Shown: piece after piece, positions 42,018-59,760 of the stretch
How the letters are laid out: the number at the start of each line of letters is the position of its first letter
Position numbering within the stretch: the stretch's first letter is position 1
Assembly (NCBI RefSeq): GCF_902833045.1
Contig: NZ_CADFDU010000021.1
Span: 28,746 to 92,745 of the forward strand
Origin: Burkholderia sp. BCC0322
GTDB taxonomy: Bacteria > Pseudomonadota > Gammaproteobacteria > Burkholderiales > Burkholderiaceae
DNA: 64,000 nucleotides
Reading direction: 5' to 3'
Translations under genes and position numbers: made by a program
Notes under the pieces: generated by a model
The model's database searches: none
Told to the model about the DNA's origin: nothing
Seen by the model: the letters and a program-made list of their open reading frames with translations, nothing else

Positions 42018-44126
42018 TCACCCCAACAAGTCGCCGACACCGGATTGGCCTGCCGAACGTTCGTCATTGGGCCCACGTGGCACAGACCTGCCTTGAACCT
42101 CGCCGGTGTCGCCGTCGACGACTTCGCCCGTCGACAGCGAAATCACATTGGACGGCCGTGCCGCTGAACCTGCATTGTTCGGCCCGACTGCAGCATTTGC
42201 TGCGCCGGCGGAAGCGACACCCGCAGGTTGGTTTGCCGCGGCCGAACCGGATCTAGTCGCCGATTCTTGAGACGCGGCGGAAGTCGTCGGTGTCGCAGCG
42301 GTTGCAGCAGTAGCCGTCGTTCCGGGAGAGGAGCGCTGCGCCGGTGTTTCTCGTGTCGGCGCCGCCAGGTCACCAGCTTTCGCACTTGCCGGAATCCACA
42401 CATCGAGGGCACGACGGGGAATGAAAGGGATGGCAATCTCGGGGCGATGCGTATATTTGTACTTCACACGTGCGACGGGGTAATCGCTAGGCGTTACCAA
42501 ATATCCCTGCATGTCGGGCAAACGCAAGATTTCGGACGAAAGAACAAGGTCTCGAAGGTTGCGGCGCGCGAAGACACTCATGCCGTCACGACGCTCATCG
42601 ATCCCGAGATTGAGACTTTCCTCCTTTTCGTCCAGATCAGCTTGACCGATTGCATTGGCCAATGCCTTCGCTGCATCACCATCGGTTACACGCAACAGAA
42701 GCTTGGTCTGGCAGCCAGAGATGATGGTGCGGGCGAGGTATTCACCGTAGATCAAGAAGAGTTGAGCGAAGTCCTGGATTCCGATCACAAAGCACCCACC
42801 GAACTTCCGGATGTTGGTGACGGCGAGCTTCATGATCTCAAGCTTTTGCAGCGTGGGGAGCTCGTCGTAGAAATACCAAAGGCGTTCCCGATGAATCGGC
42901 TTGAGCGCAAGAAGCGCACGGATAGCGATATCGCACCATAAGCTGATCAGTGGAAGCAGGGCAGTCTTCTGATCTTCATTGACAGTAATGAAGAGCCAGG
43001 AATCATCGTCTTCGTCTTCATTTTGGATCCACTCTCGAATCGAGAATGGTTCGCCTTCATCATGCAGGTACCGAAAACAATCGAGTTGGTTCTGCACGGT
43101 CATCTTGAGGCTCATGCCTGTGCGCTCGGTGACAGGATCAACGTAAGTCGCGGCGGACTCGTTCACGAGGACGGCGTGCAGTTCCTCAAGATTGCTATGG
43201 GCAATGGCTTTGTACAAAGCGGCATTGGTTCGCTTGTTGTCGGCGCCAAGCGCGCGAACCGCGCCTTTGAAAACCATGCGCCCGGCGATCGCGAAGAACG
43301 GATCGGGGACGTTGGGTGGAAGAGGAATGAGGCCCTCGGCAAGACCGTCGTAATGGATTTCGGTCTGGATCTCGCGCCACACGTTCCAATTTGGACTGCG
43401 AGCGTCGAGCGGATTCAGGATGATGTCTTTCCCTTCACGGAAAAACGTGGCCGTAAATTCGCCTGATGGGTCATAGACGATAGCGCGCTTTCCATTGGCC
43501 CGCACCTGCTCCATCAAGCCGAAAAACTGCTGAGATTTCCCCGTTCCCTGTGCGCCGGCAAAAAGCGTGTTGAGTACTTCCGCCTTCTTGCGCATCGGCA
43601 CACCGGCGATCCGATAAGGGCTGGCGTCGTCGCGCGCCTCCAGTTCCTTGACGAGTGCTTTCGGTTTGACGAGCTTCGCACCGCGAACCTGCTTGTCAGT
43701 CAGTTTCCCACGCCCGTATTCCATCCAGAACAGGACGGTGAGAAATGTCACCGCAATGGCTGTGAGAACGGCGTAAAGGGCAGCATTACGCGCGTAGACG
43801 AAAAACTCGTCGGCGGCGTCTTCGGTAAACGAGAGCGCGGCGGCCGGCGGCAGTTCGGTGTCGTCGTTGCCAAGATGGAACGATACGTTTGGATTGGCCA
43901 TGGGCACGACGGTGAGGATTTCAGCCTCGAGGTGCTTGACGGTCAGATAGCGTGTGTGCGCCGACGTGATGAAGTAGAGGTAAACGGCACCGGCGATGGC
44001 ACCAACGAGAATCGACGCGATCACCACGGCGACGATCGCGCTGGTGAGCAGTTTGGCTTGCTGCCACCAAAGCGCAGTCCCACGGGAGAAAGTCGCGATG
44101 CCACTGGGCGAGCGTTGATCAGCCAT
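42018..44126 (-). CDS. traD: type IV coupling protein TraD
   Basis: 702 aa. Two N-terminal membrane spans (about 27-53 and 113-134), Walker A FAGAQGTGKSQQFF near residue 192, Walker B YFYDELPTLQKL near 418. The C-terminal 110 residues are Ala/Thr/Ser-rich and end acidic, as in TraD proteins that contact the relaxosome. It pumps the relaxase-T-strand complex to the secretion channel. GGGAGG before the ATG, inside the previous gene's end. Confidence 0.96.
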   Translation of the reverse strand: MADQRSPSGIATFSRGTALWWQQAKLLTSAIVAVVIASILVGAIAGAVYLYFITSAHTRYLTVKHLEAEILTVVPMANPNVSFHLGNDDTELPPAAALSFTEDAADEFFVYARNAALYAVLTAIAVTFLTVLFWMEYGRGKLTDKQVRGAKLVKPKALVKELEARDDASPYRIAGVPMRKKAEVLNTLFAGAQGTGKSQQFFGLMEQVRANGKRAIVYDPSGEFTATFFREGKDIILNPLDARSPNWNVWREIQTEIHYDGLAEGLIPLPPNVPDPFFAIAGRMVFKGAVRALGADNKRTNAALYKAIAHSNLEELHAVLVNESAATYVDPVTERTGMSLKMTVQNQLDCFRYLHDEGEPFSIREWIQNEDEDDDSWLFITVNEDQKTALLPLISLWCDIAIRALLALKPIHRERLWYFYDELPTLQKLEIMKLAVTNIRKFGGCFVIGIQDFAQLFLIYGEYLARTIISGCQTKLLLRVTDGDAAKALANAIGQADLDEKEESLNLGIDERRDGMSVFARRNLRDLVLSSEILRLPDMQGYLVTPSDYPVARVKYKYTHRPEIAIPFIPRRALDVWIPASAKAGDLAAPTRETPAQRSSPGTTATAATAATPTTSAASQESATRSGSAAANQPAGVASAGAANAAVGPNNAGSAARPSNVISLSTGEVVDGDTGEVQGRSVPRGPNDERSAGQSGVGDLLG

Positions 44127-44535
44127 GGCTGCCTCCCATCAGTTTCTTGGTGGCAGCCTCGGCCCGATCTTGAGCCTGGTGAAAGAGTTGAACGTTTCGA
44201 TCGCTGATGATCGTCGTCAGAACCTCTCGGCAGAGAAAGACCGCGCGGACGAGATCGGGAGGCAGTTCGCCGGCAGAGATTCCGCCGGCGCCCGGCGATC
44301 CGCTTTTCGATGTTTGCGCGGGATCCGGCATGACGGCCAGCAGCGCGTTGAGCCGCTTTTCGAGTTGTTCGACGTTGTCGTTGACGATTCCGCGAACGAG
44401 GATTTGGCGAAGAAAATCGGCAACAGGAATCCCAGCCTCGTTCGCTTTTCTGCGATAAAACTGGTCGGTGGGTCTGTCGAACCGAATGGTAATACGGTCG
44501 GATTTGCCTTTGCTGGCGTGACTGGAACGTGGCAT
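44119..44535 (-). CDS. small DNA-binding relaxosome accessory protein (MobC/TrwA-like)
   Basis: 138 aa. The N-terminal 45 residues (DRITIRFDRPTDQFYRRKAN, AGIPVADFLRQILVRG) look like a ribbon-helix-helix domain, as in relaxosome proteins TraY, TrwA and MobC; the rest is helical. It is the first gene of the mobilisation operon and lies next to the predicted oriT. Such proteins bend oriT DNA and repress their own promoter. GAGG precedes ATG 44535. Confidence 0.75.
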   Translation of the reverse strand: MPRSSHASKGKSDRITIRFDRPTDQFYRRKANEAGIPVADFLRQILVRGIVNDNVEQLEKRLNALLAVMPDPAQTSKSGSPGAGGISAGELPPDLVRAVFLCREVLTTIISDRNVQLFHQAQDRAEAATKKLMGGSHG

Positions 44536-44916: not shown

Positions 44917-45007
44917 AGCGTAGAGCCTTGCGCAGCAAGGCTCTACGCACCCGCAACGGAGTTGCGTGGTGTGTGACCGTCTGGTCGGGGGGTGGGGCTT
45001 GCCCCAC
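44906..45007 (+). other. oriT: predicted origin of transfer (oriT) with nic
   Basis: A perfect 12-bp hairpin (GTAGAGCCTTGC/GCAAGGCTCTAC, 44920-44946) is followed by CGCAAC-GGA-GTTGCG (44952-44966) and then TGGTGTGTGACC (44967-44978). F oriT has the same order: a small inverted repeat that ends in ...TTGCG, followed by TGGGGTGTGG with nic. A third hairpin, GTGGGGC-TT-GCCCCAC, covers 44992-45007. The site lies beside the MOBF operon, oriented so the tra genes enter last. The exact nic base cannot be set without experiment. Confidence 0.7.
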
Positions 45008-45467: not shown

Positions 45468-45594
45468 CGGCGTGCGCGGAATTCGGTCGAGGGGAGGCGG
45501 GTTGTGGGCGAGGGCCAGAAAGAAAACGCTGTGAGGGAAGGGCGGCGTTGCGGTTCACGGCGGATGCGACTGGGCGGCCGCCGGGCAGATGCAG

Positions 45595-45890
45595 CGCAAT
45601 GCGCGCATTGCGCTCTGGATGGCTGGCCCGCACGGTGGCGACGTGGAAGCCGCGGGGTCGGTGGTCCGGCGCGCGCGACGGTGGCGGCCGCCGTACGTGA
45701 GCAGCGCAATGCGCGCATTGCGCTCTGGATGGCTGGCCCGTGCGGTGGCGACGGGGAAACCGCGGGGTCGGTAGTCCGGCGCGCGGGCGGGCCGGATCGG
45801 CGGGCGCGACGGTGGCGGCCGCCGTGCGTGATCAGCGCAATGCGTGCATTGCGCTCTGGATGGCTGGTCCGCGCGGGGCGGCGACCGCGC
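45595..45890. repeat. three imperfect repeats with an 18-bp palindrome (parS-like)
   Basis: CGCAATGCGCGCATTGCG, a perfect palindrome, at 45595-45612 and 45705-45722, and with one changed central base at 45836-45853. Each copy is followed by CTCTGGATGGCTGG and sits in a unit of about 110 and 131 bp. The second and third copies are preceded by CGACGGTGGCGGCCGCCG. Perfect palindromes in phased repeats near a ParB-like gene suggest a partition or protein-loading site. The overlapping long reading frames look like by-products of high GC. Confidence 0.7.
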
Positions 45891-46080
45891 CAGGGTGCGG
45901 GTGGCGGCCCGCGCGACGCCGACGCGGAAAACACGAGCGCGCCATCTCGGCGTGGAGGGCGGGTCGGATCGGCGGGCTCGACGGGGCAGCGGTCGAGGCT
46001 GCTGGCGGGCGGCGGCCAGGGCACAGAATTCGGCTACACTTCCCGGCAAGGGGGAGGGGCACGATGGAGTAATCGACGCC

Positions 46081-46585: not shown

Positions 46586-46750
46586 TTAGTAACCGAGCCA
46601 GTCGAGAATTTCCCGTCCCTCGTATTCCTCACGGTCGCCGACATCGGCCAAGAATTCCGTGAAATTTCCGAAGTGCCTGCGAACCTCGGCCTCGGCCTCT
46701 GCGCGCGTGATGGTCATTTCGCACGCGTCGTTGTAGCTGTATACGGCCAT
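46586..46750 (-). CDS. 54-aa leading-region protein
   Basis: Begins MAVYSYNDACEMTITRAEAE and ends EGREILDWLGY. Strongly acidic and Tyr/Glu-rich, like DNA-mimic or small regulatory proteins of plasmid leading regions, but there is no proof. GGGAGG lies eight bases before the ATG, an excellent ribosome site, so it is probably translated. Confidence 0.65.
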   Translation of the reverse strand: MAVYSYNDACEMTITRAEAEAEVRRHFGNFTEFLADVGDREEYEGREILDWLGY

Positions 46751-46801
46751 ATCTCGATCCTCCCAATGCTGGGCGCTCGCCCGCCGGAGCGGGCGCCAAA
46801 G

Positions 46802-47014
46802 TCAAACACGCTGATACGCTTCGACGTGGACGTCGGGAATCCGTTTGAAGCGGCCGTTGTTGATTCCCCACTGGAGCACGCCACGCACGTCGAGCCAGTT
46901 CCGGATCGACATTTTTTCGCTCACGGCGGCTTTGATCTCCGACCAGTGAACCGGGTTCTCGCCAATGGTTGCGCTGAGGATAGCGAGACACTCATGCTGT
47001 TGGCCTACGTTCAT
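46802..47014 (-). CDS. 70-aa leading-region protein
   Basis: Starts MNVGQQHECLAILSATIGEN and has a helix-rich body (VHWSEIKAAVSEKMSIRNWL, DVRGVLQWGINNGRFKRIPD) that looks like a small winged-helix domain. AGGAAG precedes the two adjacent ATGs (47017, 47014). Function unknown. Confidence 0.6.
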   Translation of the reverse strand: MNVGQQHECLAILSATIGENPVHWSEIKAAVSEKMSIRNWLDVRGVLQWGINNGRFKRIPDVHVEAYQRV

Positions 47015-47045
47015 CATTCTTCCTGTCGAGTGGGTGAACGATGCT

Positions 47046-47267
47046 CTACTGCGTGAACGCACCGTTGTACGCGGCGCGCTGGTCGTCACTGAGCTTCGCC
47101 GCGTCAATCTCCGTCGCGCCGTGGAAAATCATCAGGGCGTACGGATCGGCCAGAATCCGCGCCTCACGACACAGGATCGGGTCGCCGTCCACGCTCGGCC
47201 GCCGCGAACGCCAGATATTGATCGCTCGCTCAAGCTGCTCGATGCTCAGAATCGTTGCAGTGTTCAT
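47046..47267 (-). CDS. DUF3717-like small protein
   Basis: 73 aa, starting MNTATILSIEQLERAINIWR. The sequence with REARILADPYALMIFHG fits the DUF3717 family of Burkholderiales proteins, whose function is not known. GGAGAA lies before the ATG. The longer open frame upstream is a shadow. Confidence 0.75.
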   Translation of the reverse strand: MNTATILSIEQLERAINIWRSRRPSVDGDPILCREARILADPYALMIFHGATEIDAAKLSDDQRAAYNGAFTQ

Positions 47268-47313
47268 CGTGTGTTCTCCGTGATAAGGGCTGCGGTGCAG
47301 CGCTAACGTGGCT

Positions 47314-47595
47314 TCATCCGTGATACGGACAGGGGTCGCCCCGCGCAGCAATGCAGCCTGAACAGTTTTCCATTTCTTCGCACGTCGCAGCATCTGCGCT
47401 CCCGCGCTTCCATGCGTCCCGGAGGTAGGGTTCGTCTGCGAACATCGTCGGCACCTCTTCGCAACCATTCCAGTAATCGTTGCGCCCCAGGGCCTCGGCC
47501 TCCCATTGAACTTCGATGATGTCCCAACTTTCCGGGTCCGTGATTTCTGCTATCCGGGCAAGGGCGAAGGAAACACGAATATCAAGACCGCGCAT
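47314..47595 (-). CDS. 93-aa Cys-rich leading-region protein
   Basis: Begins MRGLDIRVSFALARIAEITD, similar to the start of the next gene upstream (MRTLDLRATFVMAKIVQIT). The C-terminal half has Cys at NGCEE, ATCEEMENCSGC and DPCPYHG, which could bind a metal. GGAG precedes the ATG. Role unknown. Confidence 0.65.
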   Translation of the reverse strand: MRGLDIRVSFALARIAEITDPESWDIIEVQWEAEALGRNDYWNGCEEVPTMFADEPYLRDAWKRGSADAATCEEMENCSGCIAARGDPCPYHG

Positions 47596-47712
47596 GGTAC
47601 GACTCCGTATATGAAGGATCGAAAGCGCGTCATCGGCGTGTCGATTCGGCTTCGATCAAATGCCACTGGTTGGCCCGGCGAGGCCGGGCGCGTGCGGTCG
47701 AAGTGGCAGCGG

Positions 47713-48126
47713 TCAAACCGGCCCGTATTCGCTCCCGAGTTCAAACCCTTGCTGCCAACACCGTTCAAGAACCTGTTCGTCAGCGAGTTGAAACGACATC
47801 GAGCTGCGTTCCTGCCGCGCGCTTCTACCGCTCTCAAGTGCCATCCACATAGCGTCATCGAGAAAGGTATCGGCCGCCTCGTGTTGATCGGTAATCAACG
47901 CGAGGCGACGGTATGCAAATTGCACTCTCGCCGCGAGCGCAAGTTCGTAGCTATCGGGACAAATCGCTTTCGGTCGCTTGACATCGCCCGTCTTGCCCAC
48001 GTTACCATTCGGCATGCCAAGCACGGCCGCATCCAGCCCCACGAAACACGTATCCTCGTTCGCGGGAACGGTGATCTGTACAATCTTGGCCATCACAAAC
48101 GTGGCACGCAAATCGAGCGTTCGCAT
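47713..48126 (-). CDS. 137-aa leading-region protein
   Basis: Shares its first 20 residues' pattern with the 93-aa protein. Middle part PDSYELALAARVQFAYRRL, then QHEAADTFLDDAMWMALESG and an end LERCWQQGFELGSEYGPV, mostly helical. Ribosome site AAGGAGAAAGGAA. The longer frame to 48303 has no support. Function unknown. Confidence 0.65.
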   Translation of the reverse strand: MRTLDLRATFVMAKIVQITVPANEDTCFVGLDAAVLGMPNGNVGKTGDVKRPKAICPDSYELALAARVQFAYRRLALITDQHEAADTFLDDAMWMALESGRSARQERSSMSFQLADEQVLERCWQQGFELGSEYGPV

Positions 48127-48185
48127 TTCCTTTCTCCTTGCAGTGTGCATGGGTCGCGCCGGGTCGAGTGCCCGGCTCGAATGGG

Positions 48186-48455
48186 TTAGATGTGGAAAAT
48201 GCCGAGCGCTTCGCGAATGACGCGTTGAGCGCTCGCTGCACCGTAGCGCTCGCCGCGCGCGTGCGCCTTCTCGAAGACGCTGATCGCGACATTGATTTGC
48301 CAAGCGGTCCAGTTGATCGTAGGCAGCGTGAACGCCAGTTCGCCGTCGTCGCCGTGATGGACTGCGACGAAGGAGGCAGCGCCTTCAGGGCGCACAATCG
48401 CGAAGAATCCTTCAGCGATACCGTCAACTTCCACGTCGTCATTGCAGGTAGTCAT
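48186..48455 (-). CDS. 89-aa leading-region protein
   Basis: Begins MTTCNDDVEVDGIAEGFFAI, a beta-rich small protein; then PTINWTAWQINVAISVFEKA and REALGIFHI at the end. CGGAGAAG before the ATG. Acidic in its first half. No family known. Confidence 0.65.
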   Translation of the reverse strand: MTTCNDDVEVDGIAEGFFAIVRPEGAASFVAVHHGDDGELAFTLPTINWTAWQINVAISVFEKAHARGERYGAASAQRVIREALGIFHI

Positions 48456-48469
48456 GTTTGCTTCTCCGG

Positions 48470-48760
48470 TTAGTGCCAAACCGGCGACCATGCACCGGAC
48501 GGTTGGCGGAACAACGTGATGCGCTGCACGCGACCGGCAACGCTCGTTTCGAGTCGGACGGCGCGCGCATCGTCGTCCGGGCGCGTCCAGCGGTGCAGGA
48601 CACGAATCGGGGCGTCGGCGGTGCAGCCGAGCCAGTGAGCGGCCGTTGCACGCAGGCGATTTTTCGGTTGTCGAATGCCTGCCTGGCGGTGAGCCTCGGG
48701 GGGTGCGGGGGGAACGCCCGCGCGTGTGTGCGTGATTCGGTCGGGGGTGGTTGCGCTCAC
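48470..48760 (-). CDS. 96-aa protein with repeated AGVPPAPPEAH leader
   Basis: Starts at GTG 48760, preceded by AAAGGAC. The N-terminal RAGVPPAPPEAHRQAG matches AGVPPAPPEAHLQAG in the ParB-like protein, both at protein and DNA level. The rest (ADAPIRVLHRWTRPDDDARA, RVQRITLFRQPSG) is basic and beta-rich. It is the first gene of the block behind hairpin 1. Confidence 0.6.
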   Translation of the reverse strand: MSATTPDRITHTRAGVPPAPPEAHRQAGIRQPKNRLRATAAHWLGCTADAPIRVLHRWTRPDDDARAVRLETSVAGRVQRITLFRQPSGAWSPVWH

Positions 48761-49030
48761 GATTTCGTCCTTTTGTGTCGGGTTGTGGATCTGCCATTGG
48801 GAGCCGCCTCGACGCGTTTTTAGCGGGGTGGGGCAGGGGTGCAAGGGAACCGTGGAATACCGGAGTGCGCGAAGCGCGCGAGGATATGCCGCGAAAGTCC
48901 CTTGCACCCCTGCCCCATTCCGCTATGCGTCGAAGAGGGGCGGCTCCCAATGGCAGATCCACGCGCTTAACCCGGCGCAAAAGGATGGAGCGCAACCACA
49001 CGCCTTCCCCGGCCGGATCACGCACACGGC
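48725..49030. repeat. large leader hairpin 1 (about 125-base arms, loop type A)
   Basis: Imperfect inverted repeat: arm 48725-48849 with arm 48897-49030, around 47 bases. It includes GGGGCAGGGGTGCAAGGGA and its exact complement. The inner 65 bases (48841-48905) are nearly identical to 54063-54127. It covers the first codons of 48470-48760, so the far arm holds a decayed inverted copy of that start. 49031-49475 has GC-rich short hairpins but no gene I trust. Confidence 0.8.
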
Positions 49031-49475
49031 GCGGGGCGCACTTGCCCCGCGCCCCCTCGGCCGGCAAAGCCGGCCGCAAGACCTGCTTTCCGCCCGCGCG
49101 CAGCGGGCGCGTGTTCCACGAGCAAGCGAAGCGCGCAGCGCCGGCACGGCGCGCAGACGTCAGGGATTGACGCCCGTCAGGGGCGAGACTCGCGCAGCGA
49201 GGCTCGACGCGAAGCGCGAAAGCCCGGCCCGGAGCGCAGCGGAGGGAGACGCACAAGCCAACGAACCGGGCAAGCGCCGCCAGTGCATGCGACAAAGCGA
49301 CATGCACGCCAAGCACGGCACCGGACAGGTGAGCCTTTACGGGATCGACAGAGACAACGACGGTGAGAGATTTCGGGGGCCGGTTACGAATAGCTGTGAC
49401 TTGGTCCACCAGCGCACACGGGCAGTCGCGCGCGATGCACCAGCGGGCAGGGTCTGCCCGCTGGCGAAAGTCAGG

Positions 49476-51659
49476 TCAATCTCGCGGCGGCATGCCTTCT
49501 GCTTCTGCTACAGCCGCCTCGTCGCGGCTATCATCCGTAGCTTCGGCCACGTCGGCCGACTCGGTCCCGTCGTTCGCCTCGTCGGCATCGTGCGCGCCCG
49601 ATGCGTCGTCGTCGCCGTCCTCTTCCTCATCCACGTCCGACGACGTGGCCGTGTGATTGCGCCAGAGGGGCCGCGACCGCGTTTCGGCGCGGGCGAAGTG
49701 ATCGGGAAGCCAGCCGGTACCGCTCACGATCCGCTCGGCCTCGGTCGCGGCGTCGCCCTTCTTCAGCTTCACGATCCGCATGCCTTCGGCGGGCGACACG
49801 GCGACGGTCACGACCTCCGCGATGCGCGCTTTCGACACATGGTCGAAGTAGCTGGCGCGTGTCGGCTTCCATTCGTCTGCGAGATTGAGGTTCAGCGCGG
49901 GAATCAGCGCGTTGATGCTATGTGCGCCCTCGTCGGTCGCGACACCATCGACGCTTGCGCCGACGTACTGCGCGAGGATGAGCATGAGACGTTCGTCGGA
50001 TTGCTCGATACACCACGTGAGCAGTGCGCCGGTATCGTTCGGGACAAGCCCACCCCATGCGCCGCGTTGCTCGCAGGAAAGGCGATAGGGCAGGTCGTCG
50101 GCAAGCTCGGTCGCATGCCGCTCGACCTTGCCGGTGTGGTCGTGCCACTGAATATCGATTGCGCTAGCCATCGAGCCGGGGGCATAGTCGGTGACGAGAA
50201 AGCGGTGAACGAGCACGGCAAGCGCGACGTGCGGCTGGCGCGCGAGCGCCATGCCGACGACGGCGGTACGCCGGGCATTCAGGCGCAACGTGAGCGTTCC
50301 CGAATGCGGGTCCTTCGTGGGCGGTGCAGACTGTGCAACGCTGCCACTCGCTGCGGGTGACGTCGGCGTTTCGCCGGCGCTGGCGAGCGTACCGTCGCCG
50401 TCGGTTTCGTCGTCTCGAACCGACGTCGGCTCGGCTCGCCGGGCCCAGCCGCGCACGACTTCGAGCGCACCGTCTTGGTCGATGGTGACGACAGCACCGG
50501 CCCCGGCCATCTGGAGCGGCGTGTAGACGTACAGCGATTCCTCGATCGAAGCGTAGCGCAGAGAAAGGGCTGTCTCTTCGTCACACAGGCGCTCGTAGGT
50601 TTCTTCATCGATATCGTCGGCCTCCTGCTCCTGTTCGATGGCCTCCATCCGCGCGTCGATCGCATCCATTTCCTGCTGTTGCGCTTCGGTGGGCGGGACA
50701 GCAGTAGCAGGCACGCGCTGCAAACCTACCTTTGCGTTGTAGTCGAACACGGTAATCGGCTCGACCCAATCCCAACCTTCCTCCTGAACCTTCGCCGCAA
50801 TGGTCGTCAGTTGCTCAACCGCAACGCGTTCCATCAAGGCGTGATCGGCATACCACGCCGTGCCCTGATCGGAGAACAGGTCACGGCGCACGACACCACC
50901 TGCCGCCTCGTAAGCGTCGATCCCAACGAACAGGGCAATGCGGTTGCTCTGAAAGTCGTGTTCGCCCGCAACCAGCTTGCGGCGGATCGCATGTGGCTCG
51001 CGGTCATGGGGCTTCGCGTCAAACCATGCGCTTTCCTGCTCGGCGTGGCTGTCGGACAGTGCGAGCGCCTGCATCTGGTCGGCGCGGATTTCGTCGGCCC
51101 GGAACAGATCGACCAGCTTGGGCGAGACACGGGCGAGCTTCAGGCGACGCTGCACGAGTTGGGGGGTCGTCCCGTAGATTTCGGCAATTTCCGCCACGGT
51201 GCGCCCCGCATCGACCAGCACGCGATACGCGTCGCACTGGTCGGCGGGATGCATCGGCTCGCGCATTTCGTTCTCGCTGGTGCTGATCAGCACGGCGGCC
51301 TCGACGGACACGACCGTGCAGCGAACTTCCTCATCGAGACTGATTCGGCCACGCTCGACCAGTTCCAGCAGCGCCAGCCGCCGCGATTCGCCTGCGGCCG
51401 CGCCGAAGGTCTGCGCCCGCTTCGCACCCACCTTCATCGGATGCACGATGATGTTTTGCAACAGACCGACATGGTCGATGTTGTTGGCGAGCGCCGAAAT
51501 GCCGGTGCGCTTCGTGCGCCGGACATTGAACGGCGACGCGACGAGACGTTTCAAGGGAATGAGGCGTTCATCGCCTGCCTGCAGGTGGGCCTCGGGGGGT
51601 GCGGGGGGAACGCCCGCGTCGTGGGCGAGTGCCGGGATTTCGGTGATCACTGCGTTCAT
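49476..51659 (-). CDS. large ParB/RepB/Spo0J-family protein
   Basis: 727 aa. After the Pro-rich leader AGVPPAPPEAHLQAG comes a ParB-N domain: IPLKRLVASPFNVRRTKR and TFGAAAGESRRLALLELV, then PMHPADQCDAYRVL and an HTH (TVAEIAEIYGTTPQLVQRRL) around residues 150-185. The remaining 500 residues are unlike short ParB proteins, with acidic stretches (EQEQEADDIDEETYER) and an acidic end. Similar large ParB-like proteins sit in leading regions of F-like plasmids; partition, anti-SOS or DNA modification roles are possible. AAGGAGG precedes ATG 51659. Confidence 0.85.
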   Translation of the reverse strand: MNAVITEIPALAHDAGVPPAPPEAHLQAGDERLIPLKRLVASPFNVRRTKRTGISALANNIDHVGLLQNIIVHPMKVGAKRAQTFGAAAGESRRLALLELVERGRISLDEEVRCTVVSVEAAVLISTSENEMREPMHPADQCDAYRVLVDAGRTVAEIAEIYGTTPQLVQRRLKLARVSPKLVDLFRADEIRADQMQALALSDSHAEQESAWFDAKPHDREPHAIRRKLVAGEHDFQSNRIALFVGIDAYEAAGGVVRRDLFSDQGTAWYADHALMERVAVEQLTTIAAKVQEEGWDWVEPITVFDYNAKVGLQRVPATAVPPTEAQQQEMDAIDARMEAIEQEQEADDIDEETYERLCDEETALSLRYASIEESLYVYTPLQMAGAGAVVTIDQDGALEVVRGWARRAEPTSVRDDETDGDGTLASAGETPTSPAASGSVAQSAPPTKDPHSGTLTLRLNARRTAVVGMALARQPHVALAVLVHRFLVTDYAPGSMASAIDIQWHDHTGKVERHATELADDLPYRLSCEQRGAWGGLVPNDTGALLTWCIEQSDERLMLILAQYVGASVDGVATDEGAHSINALIPALNLNLADEWKPTRASYFDHVSKARIAEVVTVAVSPAEGMRIVKLKKGDAATEAERIVSGTGWLPDHFARAETRSRPLWRNHTATSSDVDEEEDGDDDASGAHDADEANDGTESADVAEATDDSRDEAAVAEAEGMPPRD

Positions 51660-51696
51660 AAATCCTCCTTGCTGTGGTGGAAAATCTCTGCCTTTG

Positions 51697-51860
51697 GAGC
51701 TGCCTCGACGCATAGGAGCGCCAGCGCGACGGCACGGCAGGGGCGCGAACAAGGCCGCACGCGGAGCGCAGGCGAAGCCGAGCACCGAACGGGCGCCGGG
51801 CGCGGCGTAGCGAACCCTTGCCATGCCGGCACGCAGCGCTATGCGTCGGGATGAGGCAGT
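51697..51860. repeat. large leader hairpin 2 (shared arms, loop type B)
   Basis: Arms CGACGCATAG (51706-51715) and CTATGCGTCG (51839-51848) match those of hairpin 1. Inside are GGCACGGCA/TGCCATGCC and CAAGG/CCTTG pairs. The loop 51750-51820 resembles 57215-57299, not the hairpin 1 loop. It stands 40-200 bases before the ParB-like gene. 51861-52356 is GC-rich repeats with no gene I trust. Confidence 0.75.
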
Positions 51861-52356
51861 CCGAAGGCAGCGCCACCGCAGCGCAGGGGATGGAATGCGG
51901 TGGGTCGGGTCCGAAGCCCGGTGCTCGCCGGCGCGGGCCGGTGACGGCCCGAGCCCCCTTCCGCGCGGCAGGCCGCGCGGCTGTCGGGGACGGCCTGCGC
52001 CGGGGCCGGCCGCCGGCGGCGGCCGAGCCCCAGGAGCGAACAGGCCGTGTGTCCGGCGCGCGGAAATTGGCGGCTTGCGTGCCTGGCGCGGCCAGGCGGG
52101 CAAGGTGCCGCGCGCCGGCTGGCGAAGGGGAGAGGGCTGAGATCTCACCTCGAGGCGGCGGGCGCGGCTACCGCCGCCCGCACCGGCCGCTCGAAGCGGA
52201 CGGGGTGGGCTCGCCCCGAACCGGTGGTACAGGCCGCGGTACACAAACTGGCGATCGTGTACCACTGGGCGCCCAGGGCCGCAGGCCCGGGCGCGTAGTG
52301 GAACAAGGTGAGCTGCGATCGTCGCCGGCGCCAGGAGTGCGCCTGGCGGCCGCTCG

Positions 52357-52545
52357 CTATTTCGCCGAGTTCCGCAGCCCGTGCACGACGCCGGCGTTGT
52401 ACGCGGCGATCAGCGCGGTCCGGATGCACCAGACTGCGCAATCGTGGAAATCCAGGCGATCGCGATAACGGGTCTTGAGCGTTTCGATACTCAGGTGGTC
52501 GCGCGCGATCGCAGTAAGCAGCGCTTCGAATTCGGCTTTCTTCAT
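52357..52545 (-). CDS. 62-aa leading-region protein
   Basis: Sequence MKKAEFEALLTAIARDHLSI followed by ETLKTRYRDRLDFHDCAVWC and a short end. Entirely helical and compact. AAGGA precedes the ATG, two bases after the upstream stop, so translation is coupled. Function unknown. Confidence 0.65.
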   Translation of the reverse strand: MKKAEFEALLTAIARDHLSIETLKTRYRDRLDFHDCAVWCIRTALIAAYNAGVVHGLRNSAK

Positions 52546-52547
52546 GG

Positions 52548-52715
52548 TCAGTCCTTCCGCACGCCCTGGCCGAGCTCGAACGCATCGCGCAGCGCATAGA
52601 TGAGTTCGCCGATTGTCATCGTCACTTTGTCGCCGTCATCGGTACCGGTCATGCGGGCGCCGAAATGTTTATCGACGATCGCGCACAGCAAATGCTTGAT
52701 GTAGAAGAGCTGCAT
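52548..52715 (-). CDS. 55-aa leading-region protein
   Basis: From ATG 52715 (CGGAGAAAACCA upstream, the same leader as the DUF932-like gene). Starts MQLFYIKHLLCAIVDKHFGA, ends MTIGELIYALRDAFELGQGV. Hydrophobic-helical then acidic. The longer frame upstream is not supported. Function unknown. Confidence 0.6.
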   Translation of the reverse strand: MQLFYIKHLLCAIVDKHFGARMTGTDDGDKVTMTIGELIYALRDAFELGQGVRKD

Positions 52716-52772
52716 TGGTTTTCTCCGTGTTGGCAACGCCGGCCGCGTCGAGCGGCCGGCGATCAATTTGGG

Positions 52773-53294
52773 TCAGTGGAATTGCACGGCGCCGCCCATG
52801 CGGGCAAGCGTGAAGGCTTGAAACCAATTGCGGTACAGGAGCGCGAAGCTGCCGTCTTCCGCAACGTCGACCGCATGCATAAACCGGCTGAAATCGTCGG
52901 CCAGCTTGCGGGACAGCCGCGGCCCGATCGTGCCCATCGTGGCCGAAAAATTGATCAGTTCGTGGAACGGTCCGGAGCCTGCCGCGATAGCACCGTGTTC
53001 GTGCCAAACGCCCCGGCGGCCAGGCAACGCGATCGCGGGGTAACCGGCGAGCTGCGCCAGCTGCTCGCGCCATACGTGGAAAATCGCGTAGCTGCCGGCG
53101 AAGAACTCGTACGAGTTCGTGTATCGATAAATCAGACCTGTATCGAGCCCGTCGGCATGGTCCGGAAAGCGCGGTGCGCCGTAGAAGCGCACCGCGAACG
53201 TGTCGAGCGGATCGCCGTTGCTGTCGAATCGCGGCGCTTCGATATCGATGAGGCCGCAATAGGCCGTGATCGTGAGTCCCATGATGGTATCCAT
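52773..53294 (-). CDS. 173-aa leading-region protein
   Basis: Starts MDTIMGLTITAYCGLIDIEA (an inner ATG at 53282 is also possible). It has the regular beta pattern of a compact soluble domain: RFYGAPRFPDHADGLDTGLI, GYPAIALPGRRGVWHEHGAI. The end FTLARMGGAVQFH is conserved-looking. Candidate anti-defence or regulatory protein by context only. Confidence 0.6.
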   Translation of the reverse strand: MDTIMGLTITAYCGLIDIEAPRFDSNGDPLDTFAVRFYGAPRFPDHADGLDTGLIYRYTNSYEFFAGSYAIFHVWREQLAQLAGYPAIALPGRRGVWHEHGAIAAGSGPFHELINFSATMGTIGPRLSRKLADDFSRFMHAVDVAEDGSFALLYRNWFQAFTLARMGGAVQFH

Positions 53295-53313
53295 GCGGTG
53301 AGTAGAGGAGAAA

Positions 53314-53955
53314 TCAGGCAGCGGCCTGGGCCGGCGCCGTTAGGCGCGCTTTGGCGGCCGCGAAGTAGGTCGCGTCCAGTTCGATGCCGATATACCGGCG
53401 GCCGAGCTCGCGCGCGGCAACGCAGGTCGAACCGGATCCAGCGAACGGATCAAGAACGGTGTCGCCCGGCTGCGTAAATGCGGAAATGAGTGTGCGCAAC
53501 GCGGAAACAGGCTTTTCGGTCGGGTGATGGCGATTGCCGCTGTACTGGAACGGCATCACGTCGGCGATCGGCTGCGCCGGCGCCGCGGGCCGGCCCTTGG
53601 CGAGCAGATAGGCGGATTCGTGTTGGTACTTCACCAGGCCGGCTTTCGACGCGTAGGACTTCGTGAAGACGAAGTGGCCGGCGACACGAAAGCCGGCCGC
53701 CTTCCAGGCGTCGAAAAACAGGTCGACCTTGTTCCAGCCATAGAACGAAATGCACACCGCGTCGCGCTTCAAGACGCGGAACATTTCGGCGAACGCCGGC
53801 GCCAGCCAGTCGCCATTCACGTCGTTCGCGATCGAGCGGCCGCTCCGATCGCGGAAGTTCACGAGGTAGGGCGGGTCCGTCACGATGCAGTCGACGGATT
53901 CGGGGGCGAGTTGGGGCATGGCGACCAGGCAGTCGCCGTTGTACAAATAGCTCAC
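53314..53955 (-). CDS. site-specific DNA methyltransferase (beta class)
   Basis: 213 aa from GTG 53955 (GGAG upstream; the longer frame to 54018 is less likely). Catalytic motif TDPPY at 26-30 precedes the AdoMet motif DPFAGSGST near 168-177, the order of beta-class N6-adenine or N4-cytosine enzymes; DPPY suggests adenine. EKPVSALRTLISAF and a target-recognition region between them are seen. No partner nuclease is near, so it is an orphan enzyme. In leading regions such methylases can protect incoming DNA from host restriction. Confidence 0.9.
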   Translation of the reverse strand: MSYLYNGDCLVAMPQLAPESVDCIVTDPPYLVNFRDRSGRSIANDVNGDWLAPAFAEMFRVLKRDAVCISFYGWNKVDLFFDAWKAAGFRVAGHFVFTKSYASKAGLVKYQHESAYLLAKGRPAAPAQPIADVMPFQYSGNRHHPTEKPVSALRTLISAFTQPGDTVLDPFAGSGSTCVAARELGRRYIGIELDATYFAAAKARLTAPAQAAA

Positions 53956-54062
53956 GGTCAGCTCCACAGAGTTGAGATAGGGGCAGCCGGAGCACAGCCA
54001 GAACGATCTGGCTCGCAAACCGTGCTACCCGGAGCTGGCGAGCGCCCGCGGGAGAATGGGGG

Positions 54063-54127
54063 GCAAGGGGACCGTGGAATACCGGAGTGCGCGCAGCGCG
54101 CGAGGATATGCCGCGAAAGCCCCTTGC
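54063..54127. repeat. leader hairpin 3 (loop type A)
   Basis: GCAAGGGG (54063-54070) with CCCCTTGC (54120-54127). The 65 bases differ from hairpin 1 at three places; two form a compensating pair (A-T in one, G-C in the other), the third lies in the small inner loop. It is 108 bases before the methyltransferase start. The rest of 53956-54411 shows no gene. Confidence 0.8.
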
Positions 54128-54411
54128 AGGAGCAGGGCGCCGTGCGACACTCGTCGCGCGCGGCGCAATGGTCCGTCCGCCAGGCTACGGCGGGCGAACG
54201 TGGGCTCCGGGTTGAAAGGTCGACTGCAGGGACGAGGCGAGGACATCGACCGTAGCCTGTGCGCTCGGCCGGCGAGCGGCGTTGCGTCACGGACATGAGC
54301 GCCACGGCGGTCGCAGATCGCCGGGCGCGATCGCGATTTCATTGGCGCGGCCGCGCAGCGGCCGCCGCGCGAATTCGGGAGCAGGGTAATCAGCTCCCGA
54401 CCGCAGTGGAA

Positions 54412-54873
54412 TCAGAACAGCGGCAGCTGCTGCGCCTCGACGCGAGCGGCGGGATGTTGGGCATCGATGTCCGTCGCGAGCAAGGCGATCGCCGCCAGCT
54501 CGAGATCTTCCTTGCTCGCGTCGGATAGCCCGTCTGCACGCACCGCGGCACCTGTCGCTCCAATCTGCTCAAACTCCGCACGCGAATCTGCCAAAAGCGC
54601 GCGTTTTGCATGCTCAGGGAGCACACACGTGACAGACGCGTAGCATCCGTCGAAGAATCGCTTTACAGCGTAGCGTTCGCCACTGCCATGCATGGGGCGG
54701 TAGACGGTCAGGTCGATGCATTCATTGCCCCTTCGGCGGTTGCTCCAGCTCACGGGCCCGCAGGGCACTAACCCGACTTCGGCCGCAATCCTTGCCCCTT
54801 TCGCGACGAGATCGACGTGTGCTCGATTGACGGTACAGTGCAAGTTCGGCATCTTCAGGAAAGGCTGTTCCAT
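54412..54873 (-). CDS. 153-aa leading-region protein
   Basis: From ATG 54873, with CAGGA upstream (ATG 54894 is possible). Contains NLHCTVNRAHVDLVAKGARI and CIDLTVYRPMHGSGERYAVK, mixed beta/alpha, then a helical acidic end (ASKEDLELAAIALLATDID). Function unknown. Confidence 0.55.
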   Translation of the reverse strand: MEQPFLKMPNLHCTVNRAHVDLVAKGARIAAEVGLVPCGPVSWSNRRRGNECIDLTVYRPMHGSGERYAVKRFFDGCYASVTCVLPEHAKRALLADSRAEFEQIGATGAAVRADGLSDASKEDLELAAIALLATDIDAQHPAARVEAQQLPLF

Positions 54874-54983
54874 CACGTGGTCCTGGTCGTGCATGAGCGG
54901 CCGGGCCCCAACGGCCGACCGTCCACAAGTTTCGAATTCGGGCGAAGATCGCCGGCACTCGATGTCCGGCGATCGACTCCAGG

Positions 54984-55265
54984 TCAATGCCCCTCGATGG
55001 TCCTCTTGCGCCACCCTTGTACGTCATTCATCTCGACAAGGTTGAACGGGGTCTCACCATCCGGCTCGACGCCAGGGTTCGCGAGGATCACGCGCAATGC
55101 CTCCTCATCACTCAGACCTGCGAGGGCCGTCAAAAGCCTATTCCGACCGGCTTTGGTCGCGCGGGCCCATTCGCTTCCATCCTCGTCGTCGGAATCCGGC
55201 ATGGTGCGCAACTGGAGGCTGTAGGCGCGAGCTGCGTCGGTCGCAGCGGTCTCGATCGTGGTCAT
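54984..55265 (-). CDS. 93-aa leading-region protein
   Basis: Starts MTTIETAATDAARAYSLQLR, then acidic DSDDEDGSEW and helical LSDEEALRVILANPGVEP, ending in basic GWRKRTIEGH. GAGGA before the ATG. The next gene upstream ends 22 bases away. Function unknown. Confidence 0.6.
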   Translation of the reverse strand: MTTIETAATDAARAYSLQLRTMPDSDDEDGSEWARATKAGRNRLLTALAGLSDEEALRVILANPGVEPDGETPFNLVEMNDVQGWRKRTIEGH

Positions 55266-55287
55266 GTTTCCGTCCTCGCTCTCGTGG

Positions 55288-55953
55288 TCAGTGGACGTCT
55301 CGGCGCACGAAGAGACGTGCGCCCGTGGTCGAGCGAGGAAAGCCGTGAGCGTCGGTGGTTTCCGCGAGCATTGCGTCGACGTCCATCTGTACGTTGGATC
55401 CCGATCGACGGCTGCCGGTCCGATGTACGCCGATGACCTCGATCAGCTGCAGCCGGCCGGCTCGGTAATTGTCGACCGTCATCATGGCGCGAACGTCCGG
55501 TGCCAGGAGATCTGCGTAGCGCAACGCGAGACGCTCGAGCACCTGTCCGATGGCACGATCGCTGAACCGGCGCGACAGCGTGATCCTATCCGCAGCCAGG
55601 TGGACTGTCAGACGCCCAGACGACGTCAGCATGAAGTGCTCGACGCGCTCGACCCTGCCACCGTTGGCGAGGCGCGTCGCCTGCAGCGGCAATACGAGCC
55701 GGGCGACCTGCAGGTCGCGCGGGCCGTCCATCCATTCGATTGCCAACTGCGATCCGTTGCCGCGCTTCGTAACCGTGATCGAGAAAGACGTTGCGGGAAA
55801 CGCCTCGCGCAGGATTGTCTGCACCAACTGCACGGTATCGACGAGCGTCAGTGTGTCGGCCAGAACGGCGGCAGGTGTGGCAGCGTCCGGACTGGTTCGT
55901 GCGCGAGCCGCTTCGGTGGAACGGGAGCTGCGGTTTTCGGTGGTAAGCATCAT
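55288..55953 (-). CDS. LPD29-like protein
   Basis: 221 aa from the first of two adjacent ATGs. Residues about 45-110 (QTILREAFPATSFSITVTKR, AIEWMDGPRDLQVARLVLPL) fit the LPD29-type domain found in polyvalent proteins of plasmids and phages; such domains are carried into recipients or act on host DNA processes. The C-terminal half (RRFSDRAIGQVLERLALRY) is different. GAGGTC precedes the ATG. Confidence 0.65.
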   Translation of the reverse strand: MMLTTENRSSRSTEAARARTSPDAATPAAVLADTLTLVDTVQLVQTILREAFPATSFSITVTKRGNGSQLAIEWMDGPRDLQVARLVLPLQATRLANGGRVERVEHFMLTSSGRLTVHLAADRITLSRRFSDRAIGQVLERLALRYADLLAPDVRAMMTVDNYRAGRLQLIEVIGVHRTGSRRSGSNVQMDVDAMLAETTDAHGFPRSTTGARLFVRRDVH

Positions 55954-56025
55954 GATCGACCTCGATAGAAATGGAACACGACAACGTTCGGTAAGGCGCC
56001 GGCGGATAGCGCCGGCGCATTCGGG

Positions 56026-56853
56026 TTAGCCCTTCAGCTTGCGCATCTCTTCGGCGAGCACCCACATGGCACGATTAAGGCGGAGATCCTGATCGATGCC
56101 GATCACACTGCGGGTCGACGTCCGGCGGCCAGTTGCGGACCGACCACGCAGCCCACCCTTGATCACGTTCTCCTGAACACGCTGGAACGTGGTCCAGAGA
56201 TCGGGGCGCGTATCTTCAGTGCGACGCGCGTGGAGCAGTTGGTTCTCGGTGACCGGTGCCGGTGCTTCGGTCACGTCATACCGGAGAGCCAGCACCGAAC
56301 GTGCGAAAGCCTGTTGTTCGCCTTCGTCGAGCTGCACAGCCTCCATCCCGTCCTTGCATTCGCGAATCAGGTCGAAACCGTCGAGCACCTCGTGCGCACC
56401 ATTAACGACGTGATCCACGACGTCCCCCTTGTGCGGTACGCGGATGTCGTGCGTCGTGTCGCCCCACACCAGACCGTTCTGGCAAACGTAGCGAAAGTAG
56501 CCCCCCAACATCTGGTAGCTGCTTGAGCCGTCATGTGAATTCAGGAGGATGATTTCCGGCGTTTCCGGGGAGGCGACCTGAGAGGCATGGCGCAGGCGCA
56601 GCATGTGCTTCGTATGCTCGCGCTTTGCGTCGACGCGCACCCGGGTTTGGCAAACCATGAAGGGCTGGAACCCTTCGTGCCGCAACTTCGTGAGGATCTC
56701 GATGGTGGGGATGTACGTGTAGCGGTCGGAGCGTGAGTCGTGCTTGTCGGCAGCGAAGATCGACGGCGCGACCTCACGGATCTGATCGTCGGTAAGAGGC
56801 GAAGTGGAGCGAACGATCGGGGCGTTGTTGCCAAACGTGGTTGCGAGTTTCAT
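56026..56853 (-). CDS. DUF932-like protein
   Basis: 275 aa from ATG 56853 (CGGAGAAAACC upstream). MKLATTFGNNAPIVRSTSPL leads to SRSDRYTYIPTIEILTKLRH, PFMVCQTRVRVDAKREHTKH and YRYVCQNGLVWGD-like text (GGYFRYVCQNGLVWGD), the pattern of DUF932 proteins. They are common in conjugative plasmids and phages beside oriT; the function is not known. The longer frame to 56973 lacks support. Confidence 0.8.
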   Translation of the reverse strand: MKLATTFGNNAPIVRSTSPLTDDQIREVAPSIFAADKHDSRSDRYTYIPTIEILTKLRHEGFQPFMVCQTRVRVDAKREHTKHMLRLRHASQVASPETPEIILLNSHDGSSSYQMLGGYFRYVCQNGLVWGDTTHDIRVPHKGDVVDHVVNGAHEVLDGFDLIRECKDGMEAVQLDEGEQQAFARSVLALRYDVTEAPAPVTENQLLHARRTEDTRPDLWTTFQRVQENVIKGGLRGRSATGRRTSTRSVIGIDQDLRLNRAMWVLAEEMRKLKG

Positions 56854-56912
56854 GGTTTTCTCCGTTGAAGATTCAGGTTTGATGCGAGGTGTTAGGCGTT
56901 CGCTGGTGTCCG

Positions 56913-57044
56913 TCAACACCAGACGACGTGGTCGTAAGCGACGGTGCGTCGGTAGTAGTTCCGTCCATCCCAAGGCGTGTACGTGTATTCCATGTAGGCA
57001 CAGTCAAGGACTACTATCCAATGGTGCAGTCGGTTCGTTTCCAT
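56913..57044 (-). CDS. 43-aa leading-region protein
   Basis: Starts METNRLHHWIVVLDCAYMEY, then YTPWDGRNYYRRTVAYDHVV. Rich in Tyr, Trp and Arg. Its ribosome site GGAGG six bases before the ATG is one of the best in the window. First gene of the block behind hairpin 4. Confidence 0.6.
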   Translation of the reverse strand: METNRLHHWIVVLDCAYMEYTYTPWDGRNYYRRTVAYDHVVWC

Positions 57045-57214
57045 CGTGACCTCCGTCTACGGTTGGTTTGCATTGCATGCCGCCCGGGCCCCAAGATTCG
57101 GCGCTCCCCTCGTAGGGGTTCGGGCCGGTGACGACTTGACTTCGGCAGACCTGCTGCCGCCAGTCCCCTGAGTTCGTCGTCCCGCGACTAAAGGAGCCTG
57201 CCGGCGGGCGTGTT

Positions 57215-57299
57215 CAAGGGCGGTCGCAAAGCCGCACGCGGAGCGCAGCCCGAAGGGCGAGCACCGAACGGGTGCCGCGGCCGGCGAAGCGCACCCTTG
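57215..57299. repeat. leader hairpin 4 (loop type B)
   Basis: CAAGGG (57215-57220) with CCCTTG (57294-57299). The loop has GCCGCACGCGGAGCGCAG and GAGCACCGAACGGG, both also in hairpin 2. It stands 170 bases before the 43-aa gene. Confidence 0.75.
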
Positions 57300-57344
57300 A
57301 ATGCGAACGACGGTGGGCTACGGTCGCGGTTGGGACGGCGAGAT

Positions 57345-57613
57345 CAGGGGACTGGCGGTACGCGCAAAGTTGAGACAGCACCGGCTCGCCGCGCGGCGAG
57401 CGCCGATTCGTGCGGCCTTCCGGCCGCACGACTGGAATTGCGCGTGCACCGCTCGGTGCACGCCCCGGCACTACCTGACGGGATTGACCCCGACCACGAT
57501 CCCCCCGCAGCTCGATCGGCGTTGTCTCGGCGGTCACTCGGTGACAGCCGAGCTCGTCAGGAGACTGGCGGTATGCGCAAAGTTGAGGCAGCTCCGACTC
57601 GGCGCGCGGCGAG
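57345..57613. repeat. duplicated 56-bp element with hairpins, divergent intergenic region
   Basis: Copies at 57345-57400 and 57558-57613 share ACTGGCGGTA and GCGCAAAGTTGAG, each ending in a CGCGCGGCGAG half-palindrome. Between them are GTGCGGCC/GGCCGCAC and GCGTGCACC/GGTGCACGC hairpins; after them GTGTCGCG/CGCGACAC. No gene in 57045-57731. It may hold promoters for both directions or an origin. Confidence 0.65.
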
Positions 57614-59683: not shown

Positions 59684-59760
59684 TGGTGGGCCTGGCTGGA
59701 CTTGAACCAGCGACCAATCGATTATGAGTCGACTGCTCTAACCGGCTGAGCTACAGGCCC
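59684..59760 (-). tRNA. tRNA-Ile2 (anticodon CAU)
   Basis: 77 bases with encoded CCA. Seven-base acceptor stem pairs, the D arm GCTCAGCCGGTTAGAGC, anticodon loop CTCATAA and T arm GCTGGTTCAAGTCCAGC are intact. The CAU anticodon and body resemble the tRNA-Ile2 class (lysidine-modified) more than initiator or elongator Met. Ile versus Met cannot be settled fully from this. Confidence 0.9.

Follow-up and report, generated by a model that had tools for sequence, protein, structure and literature searches.

Two families of hairpins heading the leading-region gene blocks of a Burkholderia conjugative element are candidate single-strand initiation sites

We analyzed a 64,000-nucleotide stretch of DNA from Burkholderia sp. 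BCC0322 (contig NZ_CADFDU010000021.1, positions 28,746 to 92,745 of the forward strand; hereafter the window). It carries part of a Burkholderia-type MOBF conjugative element, comprising genes for a relaxase, a coupling protein and a small NikA-like protein, a gap, and four blocks of minus-strand genes. An earlier reading, made from the sequence alone, had described the four blocks and a hairpin ahead of each, and both are present in the window. We propose, with a probability of about 0.7, that the four hairpins act as sites of single-strand initiation on the transferred strand (T-strand, here the plus strand), which would be presented by folding as this strand enters the recipient, and which would both switch on the blocks and prime the complementary strand. 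The hairpins, their division into two families, the covariation, strand and gene-facing placement, and a promoter-like arm in the plasmid group of the window, are results of computation.

Results

Two hairpin families in the window

The four hairpins (HP1 to HP4) were folded as single-stranded DNA and their energies compared with those of dinucleotide shuffles, and each family was described by a covariance model (R1 for family A, R2 for family B). Their features are as follows.

48726..49027, plus strand: HP1, nested hairpin of about 300 nt heading block 1 (inverted repeats I1, I3 and I20); 48720-49035 folds at -145.2 kcal/mol, z -18.9, 0 of 100 shuffles as good
48839..48907, plus strand: family A core of HP1 (R1, 87.4 bits)
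48902..48907, plus strand: -35-like TTGCAC of HP1 in the right arm, non-template in the folded T-strand
48924..48929, plus strand: -10-like TATGCG of HP1, spacer 16, with a TTTT bulge on the template side (predicted fold)
51688..51870, plus strand: HP2, hairpin heading block 2; 51685-51875 has z -3.8, 0 of 200 shuffles as good
51739..51824, plus strand: family B core of HP2 (R2, 67.8 bits)
51818..51845, plus strand: TTGCCA-N16-TATGCG in the right arm of HP2, with an AGG bulge on the template side (predicted fold)
54061..54129, plus strand: HP3, compact family A core heading block 3, without a large outer stem (R1, 85 bits); 54010-54210 has z -3.4, 2 of 200 shuffles as good
54124..54151, plus strand: TTGCAG-N16-GACACT of HP3, the weakest promoter-like arm, its -10 in a separate small hairpin (predicted fold)
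57156..57359, plus strand: HP4, hairpin of about 200 nt heading block 4 (inverted repeat I4); 57145-57370 has z -6.5, 0 of 200 shuffles as good
57209..57316, plus strand: family B core of HP4 (R2, 79.4 bits)
57297..57324, plus strand: TTGAAT-N16-TACGGT in the right arm of HP4, with the A at -10 position 2 unpaired (predicted fold)

Folding each hairpin as single-stranded DNA had been suggested as a check by the sequence-only reading. By energy HP3 alone is modest, but it has a high score against R1. The same reading had called the hairpins related, which holds in pairs: HP1 and HP3 (family A) have a 71-nt core in common at 94% identity, and HP2 and HP4 (family B) have segments in common at 82-86% identity, so that they are not four copies of one thing. 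Common to both families is a CAAGGG/CCCTTG-like stem around the core. HP4, which had been placed at 57215-57299, is found there but has a larger extent of about 57156-57359.

With filters off, R1 gave two matches in the window (E 2e-21 and 9e-21; next best 1.1), and R2 likewise two (E 7e-20 and 1e-16; next best 0.023, intragenic). Strong matches in the window therefore occur only at the four hairpins, all on the plus strand. The model alignments include the window hairpins, which makes their scores in the window partly circular; the absence of further matches is not circular. No Rfam family reached its gathering score at the hairpins, and a permissive search returned only sub-threshold microRNA precursors and one sub-threshold sRNA.

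Conservation and covariation of the cores

BLAST searches matched the family A core query in 297 plasmid records and the family B core query in 243. A stricter pattern, allowing up to 2 mismatches per half for family A and up to 3 for family B, collected 55 and 42 matches, reduced to 30 and 21 non-redundant sequences. In the resulting alignments (30 A, 21 B), HP1 and HP3 replace two near-identical rows of locus L001, HP4 was added, and an odd row of L060 was omitted. In family A, the core CGTGGAATACC...GGATATGCCGCGAAAG is nearly invariant, and the outer stem and inner hairpin vary by compensatory change. Across the 30 sequences, 27 of the 77 alignment columns are invariant, a figure set in part by the collecting pattern; core conservation is partly a product of this pattern, and the BLAST searches that first revealed the spread of the cores used none. 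Family B has the core GCCGCACGCGGAGC...GAGCACCGAACGGG within an outer stem resembling that of family A.

Compensatory changes support 9 of the 18 predicted pairs in family A and 9 of the 19 in family B. Among 24 non-redundant family A hairpins, the outer-stem arms formed on average 9.9 of 12 pairs with their own partner and 7.2 when partners were swapped (maximum 8.4 in 5,000 trials). Folding favors the collected strand over its complement in 29 of 30 family A and 18 of 21 family B sequences. The cores occur in records of Proteobacteria, Actinobacteria and Bacillota.

Placement ahead of genes on other plasmids

R1 and R2 were scanned against 26 plasmid sources (886 kb including the window, E ≤0.05), giving 22 family A and 48 family B matches. 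Gene-facing placement was scored for 60 matches in 21 annotated regions, leaving out ten (the four of the window, those of the small or sparsely annotated L006-L008, and that of the unannotated L057). Fifty-nine of the 60 lie outside any CDS, and 52 face the start of the next CDS, at a median distance of 143 bp. Flipping the strand reduced this to 15 of 60. Random intergenic placement with random strand gave a mean of 34.6 facing hairpins and a maximum of 48 in 5,000 trials, and random placement with the strand kept gave a mean of 43.6 (p 0.006).

A Serratia IncI-like plasmid carries seven family B hairpins, each ahead of a leading-region gene or block; among the genes of these blocks are methylase, DUF3085, antirestriction, ParB-like and DUF932 genes. 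With one Serratia hairpin as the query, 2,427 plasmid records were matched, 1,643 of them from Klebsiella, only 91 with >80% of its length. In the Cutibacterium plasmid pTZC1, an actinobacterial plasmid, a family A hairpin (L011 25346-25414) lies 110 bp ahead of an ArdC-like gene and has the arm TTGCGC-N16-TATGCT.

In both F and ColIb-P9, a family A hairpin precedes a DNA methylase gene, in stretches that are 96% alike. The F copy (L021 5999-6072, F plasmid 53998-54071, minus strand) is overlapped by an annotated hypothetical ORF (L021 5785-6090), which may be spurious. Matches to the F stretch were found in 3,426 of the 5,426 complete genomes of E. coli searched, spanning at least 80% of it in 3,375, and 5,155 of the 5,209 places are on plasmids. 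A further hairpin, which in F lies at 56.47-56.75 kb, stands ahead of the antirestriction genes of F and ColIb-P9. It has weak family B scores (E 0.033 and 0.012, filters off), has GGCGAAGCG-ACCCTTG in common with family B, and has the arm TTGCAT-N15-TAAGAT with an AAG/AAA loop at the -10; by its sequence it is at most a distant relative of family B.

Small plasmids also carry the cores, among them tiny RepL or MobV plasmids and the IncQ1 plasmid pCCK381, with a family A match beside repC. On a 2.6-kb Salmonella RepL plasmid (L006 1251-1456), families B and A stand side by side on opposite strands, facing each other, consistent with each strand having an initiation site of its own. Identity with the IncQ sites ssiA and ssiB, which this plasmid and pCCK381 suggested, was considered and set aside: two small plasmids annotated RepL or MobV have no annotated primase, and recognition by RepB' therefore seems not to be needed.

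Position of oriT and identity of the transferred strand

The transfer genes and the origin of transfer (oriT) lie to the left of the blocks.

39117..42011, minus strand: MOBF (TrwC/TraI-type) relaxase-helicase (Pfam TrwC, E 3.5e-82; NCBIfam MobF, 296.6 bits, cut-off 100)
42018..44126, minus strand: type IV coupling protein, TraD-like (NCBIfam TraD_Ftype, E 8e-133, under its equivalog cut-off)
44119..44535, minus strand: small relaxosome-type protein, NikA-like (Pfam, E 2e-4, sub-threshold)
44962..44975, plus strand: nic-like motif TTGCGTGGTGTGTG of oriT, with a counterpart in F and six other plasmid records; the leading region lies to its right

The nic-like motif is preceded by a strong hairpin, and its counterpart in F, TTGCGTGGGGTGTG, is on the strand of the hairpins; we take this site to be that of the F relaxase. 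When a single mismatch to the pattern is tolerated, the motif is on the hairpin strand in 8 of 8 motif-bearing records (the window and seven others including F; 25 model matches). Seven of the 15 records listed gave no match to it, and one further match, in an unlisted locus, was only counted. Among the motif-less records, the side of the relaxase agrees by geometry for 14 more matches in L014, L015, L059, L020 and L022, as read from the gene tables; for the remaining two of the seven, the relaxase lies outside the stretch analyzed.

The sequence-only reading had placed oriT near 44.95 kb with the plus strand as T-strand, and its picture of a leading region is borne out in place, strand and logic by the nic-like match, the MOBF relaxase, the TraD-like protein and the homologs of F leading-region genes described below. 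The leading region, oriT and its polarity, the plus strand as T-strand and the position of the hairpins at the head of oriT-facing blocks are well supported. Compared with plasmid records, the 44.6-57.4 kb stretch matched 172, of which 116 are from Burkholderia and none has at least 80% coverage.

Other repeats were observed in this part of the window. Beside oriT (45321-45467) is a 27-nt inverted repeat (93%) with arms 93 nt apart, one of which contains TTTTCCACATATCCAC. Between oriT and block 1 (45573-45916) are three repeats of about 103 nt, at 89% and 62% identity to the first copy, each containing the palindrome AGCGCAATGCGCGCATTGCGCT or a one-base variant. At the other end of the window, tRNA-Met and tRNA-Pro genes and an ALIL pseudoknot (IS3-type) were found at 59684-59844 and 61549-61665, and this right-hand end may be chromosome or an integrated element.

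A promoter-like right arm

Were the T-strand to fold and serve as the template for copying in the direction of oriT, the non-template strand of a promoter would be the right arm in its 5' to 3' reading; the same letters in duplex DNA would point away from the block genes. All four window hairpins have TTG in this arm and, 16 nt past the hexamer, TATGCG, TATGCG, GACACT and TACGGT (HP1 to HP4). We scored -10 elements with a sigma-70 matrix on 27 non-redundant plasmid arms, in which those of the window are represented by near-identical relatives. The -10 score peaked at a spacer of 16 (z 3.7-3.8), the best among the spacers tried, and still did so under stricter redundancy (z 3.3, 2.6 and 2.3). 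The left arm read backwards gave z 1.1 at spacer 16, and z 1.65 (p 0.05) at 15-16. For nine arms from six Burkholderia loci of the window's kind, z was 6.1 at spacer 16, and that of their left arms 2.9.

Among the predicted folds of 17 hairpins, HP4 and several more leave the A at -10 position 2 unpaired, and a template-side bulge is present at the -10 in HP1, two of its relatives and HP2; the -10 of pTZC1 lies outside any outer stem. A strict consensus scan of the region revealed no excess of duplex promoters, although weak promoters would escape such a scan. The sequence-only reading had suggested looking for paired -35 and -10 elements in the single-strand folds. Such an arm reaches significance among plasmids of the window's group, but is weak elsewhere and poor in HP3. 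Judged from these sequences, the case for a promoter may be called strong in the window's plasmid group and no more than suggestive elsewhere.

Occurrence in phages and rolling-circle elements

An exact-pattern scan of IMG/VR found the cores in 33 contigs (27 A, 6 B), some of them verified filamentous phages or rolling-circle elements. The hairpin is on the strand with most ORF length in 22 of 27 family A and 6 of 6 family B contigs (28 of 33), counts that are not independent, since several of the contigs are near-copies. The five opposite-strand contigs are L023, L025, L028, L033 and L047, among which the two strands are almost balanced in L025 and L028, and L028, L033 and L047 are short fragments cut from longer contigs; L023 carries ArdC, a gene kind also found behind the pTZC1 hairpin.

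Pfam searches were run on the proteins of 10 of the 33 contigs. Zot was found in five (L032, L045, L048, L052 and L054), with the hairpin on the Zot strand in all five. L043 passed for TspB, and a G2P-type Rep was found in L027, L031 and L032 and, below the cut-off, in L046. A family A hairpin is near the G2P-type Rep in L027, L031 and L046. L027 also has HK97-type capsid and portal genes, which suggest a rolling-circle phage satellite. When one composed core was used as BLAST query against 50,697 phage records, the sole match was a microvirus. Cores on the coding strand of phage and rolling-circle contigs could not be mRNA promoters for the genes concerned.

Gene blocks and their products

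The blocks behind the four hairpins are as follows.

46586..48760, minus strand: block 1, small genes including DUF3717 (47046-47267), in an order similar to that in pBCJ2315
49476..51659, minus strand: block 2, ParB-like protein of 727 aa, with 29% identity to the F leading-region ParB-like protein (E 1e-64)
52357..53955, minus strand: block 3, DUF6900, genes of unknown function and a DNA methyltransferase (53314-53955; Pfam N6_N4_Mtase)
54412..57044, minus strand: block 4, genes of unknown function, LPD29 (55288-55953) and DUF932 (56026-56853); the end at 57044 is taken from the earlier reading

The DUF932 protein of block 4 has 56% identity to that of the F leading region. The methyltransferase of block 3 has 61% identity to its F leading-region homolog and 96% to a methyltransferase on the J2315 plasmid pBCJ2315, in a comparison covering 50.0-92.7 kb of that plasmid. 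We take the latter to be M.BceJIII, because M.BceJIII has been placed on the J2315 plasmid. M.BceJIII is described as silent in laboratory growth and as modifying single strands (PMC7736820). Fomenkov et al. proposed M.EcoGIX as the product of a single-strand promoter, and report both methyltransferases as silent in laboratory growth (PMC7736820). PADLOC found nothing among 10 small block proteins, and an anti-defence role of the small block genes is a guess.

Discussion

We suggest that the entering plus strand folds at the four sites in the recipient. The fold would show a conserved core, of family A or B, on top of a stem, and the right arm of this stem would provide the non-template TTG-N16-(-10-like) sequence, with a bulge or unpaired base at the -10 in HP1, HP2 and HP4. 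Host RNA polymerase would be the likely reader. Transcription would run towards oriT, copying the T-strand, so that the RNA could be both the primer of the complementary strand and the mRNA of the block. Formation of the duplex would then abolish the fold and presumably switch the blocks off. The methyltransferase, DUF932 and ParB-like proteins would serve establishment, as might the small proteins of unknown function.

Action of the hairpins as promoters, which the sequence-only reading had put forward by analogy with Frpo, is suggested by comparison: position, strand and the promoter-like arm of the window group agree with it, and the hairpins are not homologs of Frpo by sequence. Because both cores are also present in phage and rolling-circle contigs, mostly on the coding strand, single-strand initiation was probably their original function, and in leading regions the transcript would serve as mRNA as well. 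The name "single-strand initiation site whose transcript is also mRNA here" is therefore preferable to "promoter" alone, and RNA polymerase, a primase, or both are candidate readers.

Several observations weigh against this proposal. Eight of the 60 hairpins face no gene, namely one each in L010, L019, L058, L017 and L060 and three in L018; an insertion sequence ends close to that in L019. On the MOBP plasmids L017 and L018, which we take to be of PromA type, both strands bear family B hairpins, several in all, and some of these face no gene. The promoter-like signal is due largely to the nine arms of the six Burkholderia loci, and the N16 pattern was spotted by eye before being tested. The 18 other plasmid arms, which include one Burkholderia plasmid of another mobility type, gave z 0.4 at spacer 16 and z 1.8 (p 0.04) at 15-16. 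Arms from the viral collection had no -10 signal (z -1.0, n=18), and the core there therefore works, if at all, without a -10. HP3 has no outer stem and a poor -10, and two of the 17 predicted folds (the second family B hairpin of L013, and L061) are fully paired at the -10, without a bulge. In the microvirus PQ006669 (L064 1537-1610), the family A hairpin is opposite the strand of the annotated genes, against the rule that it marks the entering strand.

The hairpins could instead be pure priming sites, recruiting a primase (host DnaG, a PriA-type assembly or a plasmid primase), with the facing genes read from other promoters. The coding-strand bias and Zot-strand placement in the viral contigs, the cores of the tiny RepL or MobV and IncQ1 plasmids, the missing -10 signal of the viral set, and core conservation beyond the needs of a -35 and -10 all fit this alternative, and second-strand priming is known to proceed by host RNA polymerase, host primase or plasmid primase (PMC4595007). 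Priming alone, on the other hand, does not require hairpins placed a median of 143 bp ahead of gene starts, nor the promoter-like arm seen with spacer 16 in the plasmid group of the window, and the strict scan offers no other above-chance promoters in the region, subject to its blindness to weak ones. We consider it unlikely that priming is all they do.

An action in RNA or duplex DNA, as terminators of the preceding block, attenuators or 5' leaders, appears very improbable. The hairpins do lie between co-directional blocks, and the microvirus hairpin is directly ahead of a gene on the opposite strand. Against this, a strict scan for intrinsic terminators (a short GC stem, then a T run) found 6 in the region, where 9.3 were expected, and none at the hairpin cores; no Rfam family reached its gathering score there; and the orientation of the hairpin relative to transcription differs, being opposite in plasmids and the same in most phage and rolling-circle contigs, whereas its orientation relative to the entering DNA fits both, with the exception of the microvirus. 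Dispersed repeats without a role (REP- or MITE-like), spread by recombination, would account for cores recurring within and between plasmids, but hardly for the compensatory changes, the strand and gene-facing placement and the presence in three phyla, and we give this explanation next to no weight.

A wider view, advanced tentatively and with somewhat more doubt than belief, is that family A is one ancient single-strand landing pad of filamentous phages, rolling-circle plasmids and conjugative plasmids across Proteobacteria, Actinobacteria and Bacillota. Its internal-loop core would bind a conserved host factor sequence-specifically, and conjugative plasmids would have added the -35/-10 arm as a zygotic gene switch. 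On this view F would always have had such a pad ahead of its methylase.

If the initiation-site proposal is correct, one structural signal would link phages, small plasmids and large conjugative plasmids in converting entering single-stranded DNA into an expressed duplex replicon. Covariance models would find such sites, and hence candidate early-expressed genes, outside Enterobacterales. F and ColIb would have further sites beyond those described, ahead of the methylase and antirestriction genes, and the small genes of unknown function behind the hairpins would become candidates for establishment or anti-defence functions.

Comparison with known systems

A literature search found no description of the two core families; supplements and most subscription papers lay outside its reach, and it is hence no proof of absence. 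An 11-letter match in a CRISPR-spacer table (PMC12195874) was judged to be chance. Known Frpo sequences have been used to search plasmids (PMC12826799), and Samuel et al. (2024) ran BLAST searches of leading regions with five sequences already known and reported further candidates, some of them from Serratia (PMC11541004).

Frpo1 and Frpo2 of F and ssi1-3 of ColIb-P9 are likewise T-strand hairpins of leading regions, ahead of oriT-facing genes. Early expression in F recipients is reported to need Frpo1 and Frpo2 (PMC9849209), ColIb ardA to be driven by a Frpo-like promoter that acts before the duplex has formed (PMC8744291), and three operons of ColIb-related IncI plasmids to be read from ssi3, ssi2 and ssi1 (PMC10104558). 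The F leading region and the window have methylase, ParB-like and DUF932 genes in common. Frpo differs from families A and B in sequence family, and among the loci compared, Frpo2 matched only F and ColIb-P9 by BLAST. The ColIb-P9 hairpin ahead of ardA, at most a distant relative of family B (E 0.012), is probably ssi2, judging from its position. The Frpo' and Frpo* elements of Samuel et al. are also described as leading-region hairpins ahead of ORFs, including in Serratia marcescens; they were found by promoter consensus and BLAST (PMC11541004), and may overlap family B in Serratia.

The hairpins may resemble the single-strand origins (sso) of rolling-circle plasmids and the complementary-strand origins of filamentous phages in being folded sites on the strand that is single. 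M13 and phiX174 gave no significant match to either core model. Both cores occur in rolling-circle plasmids and filamentous phages of this kind; where they lie in leading regions, they stand in addition at the head of gene blocks.

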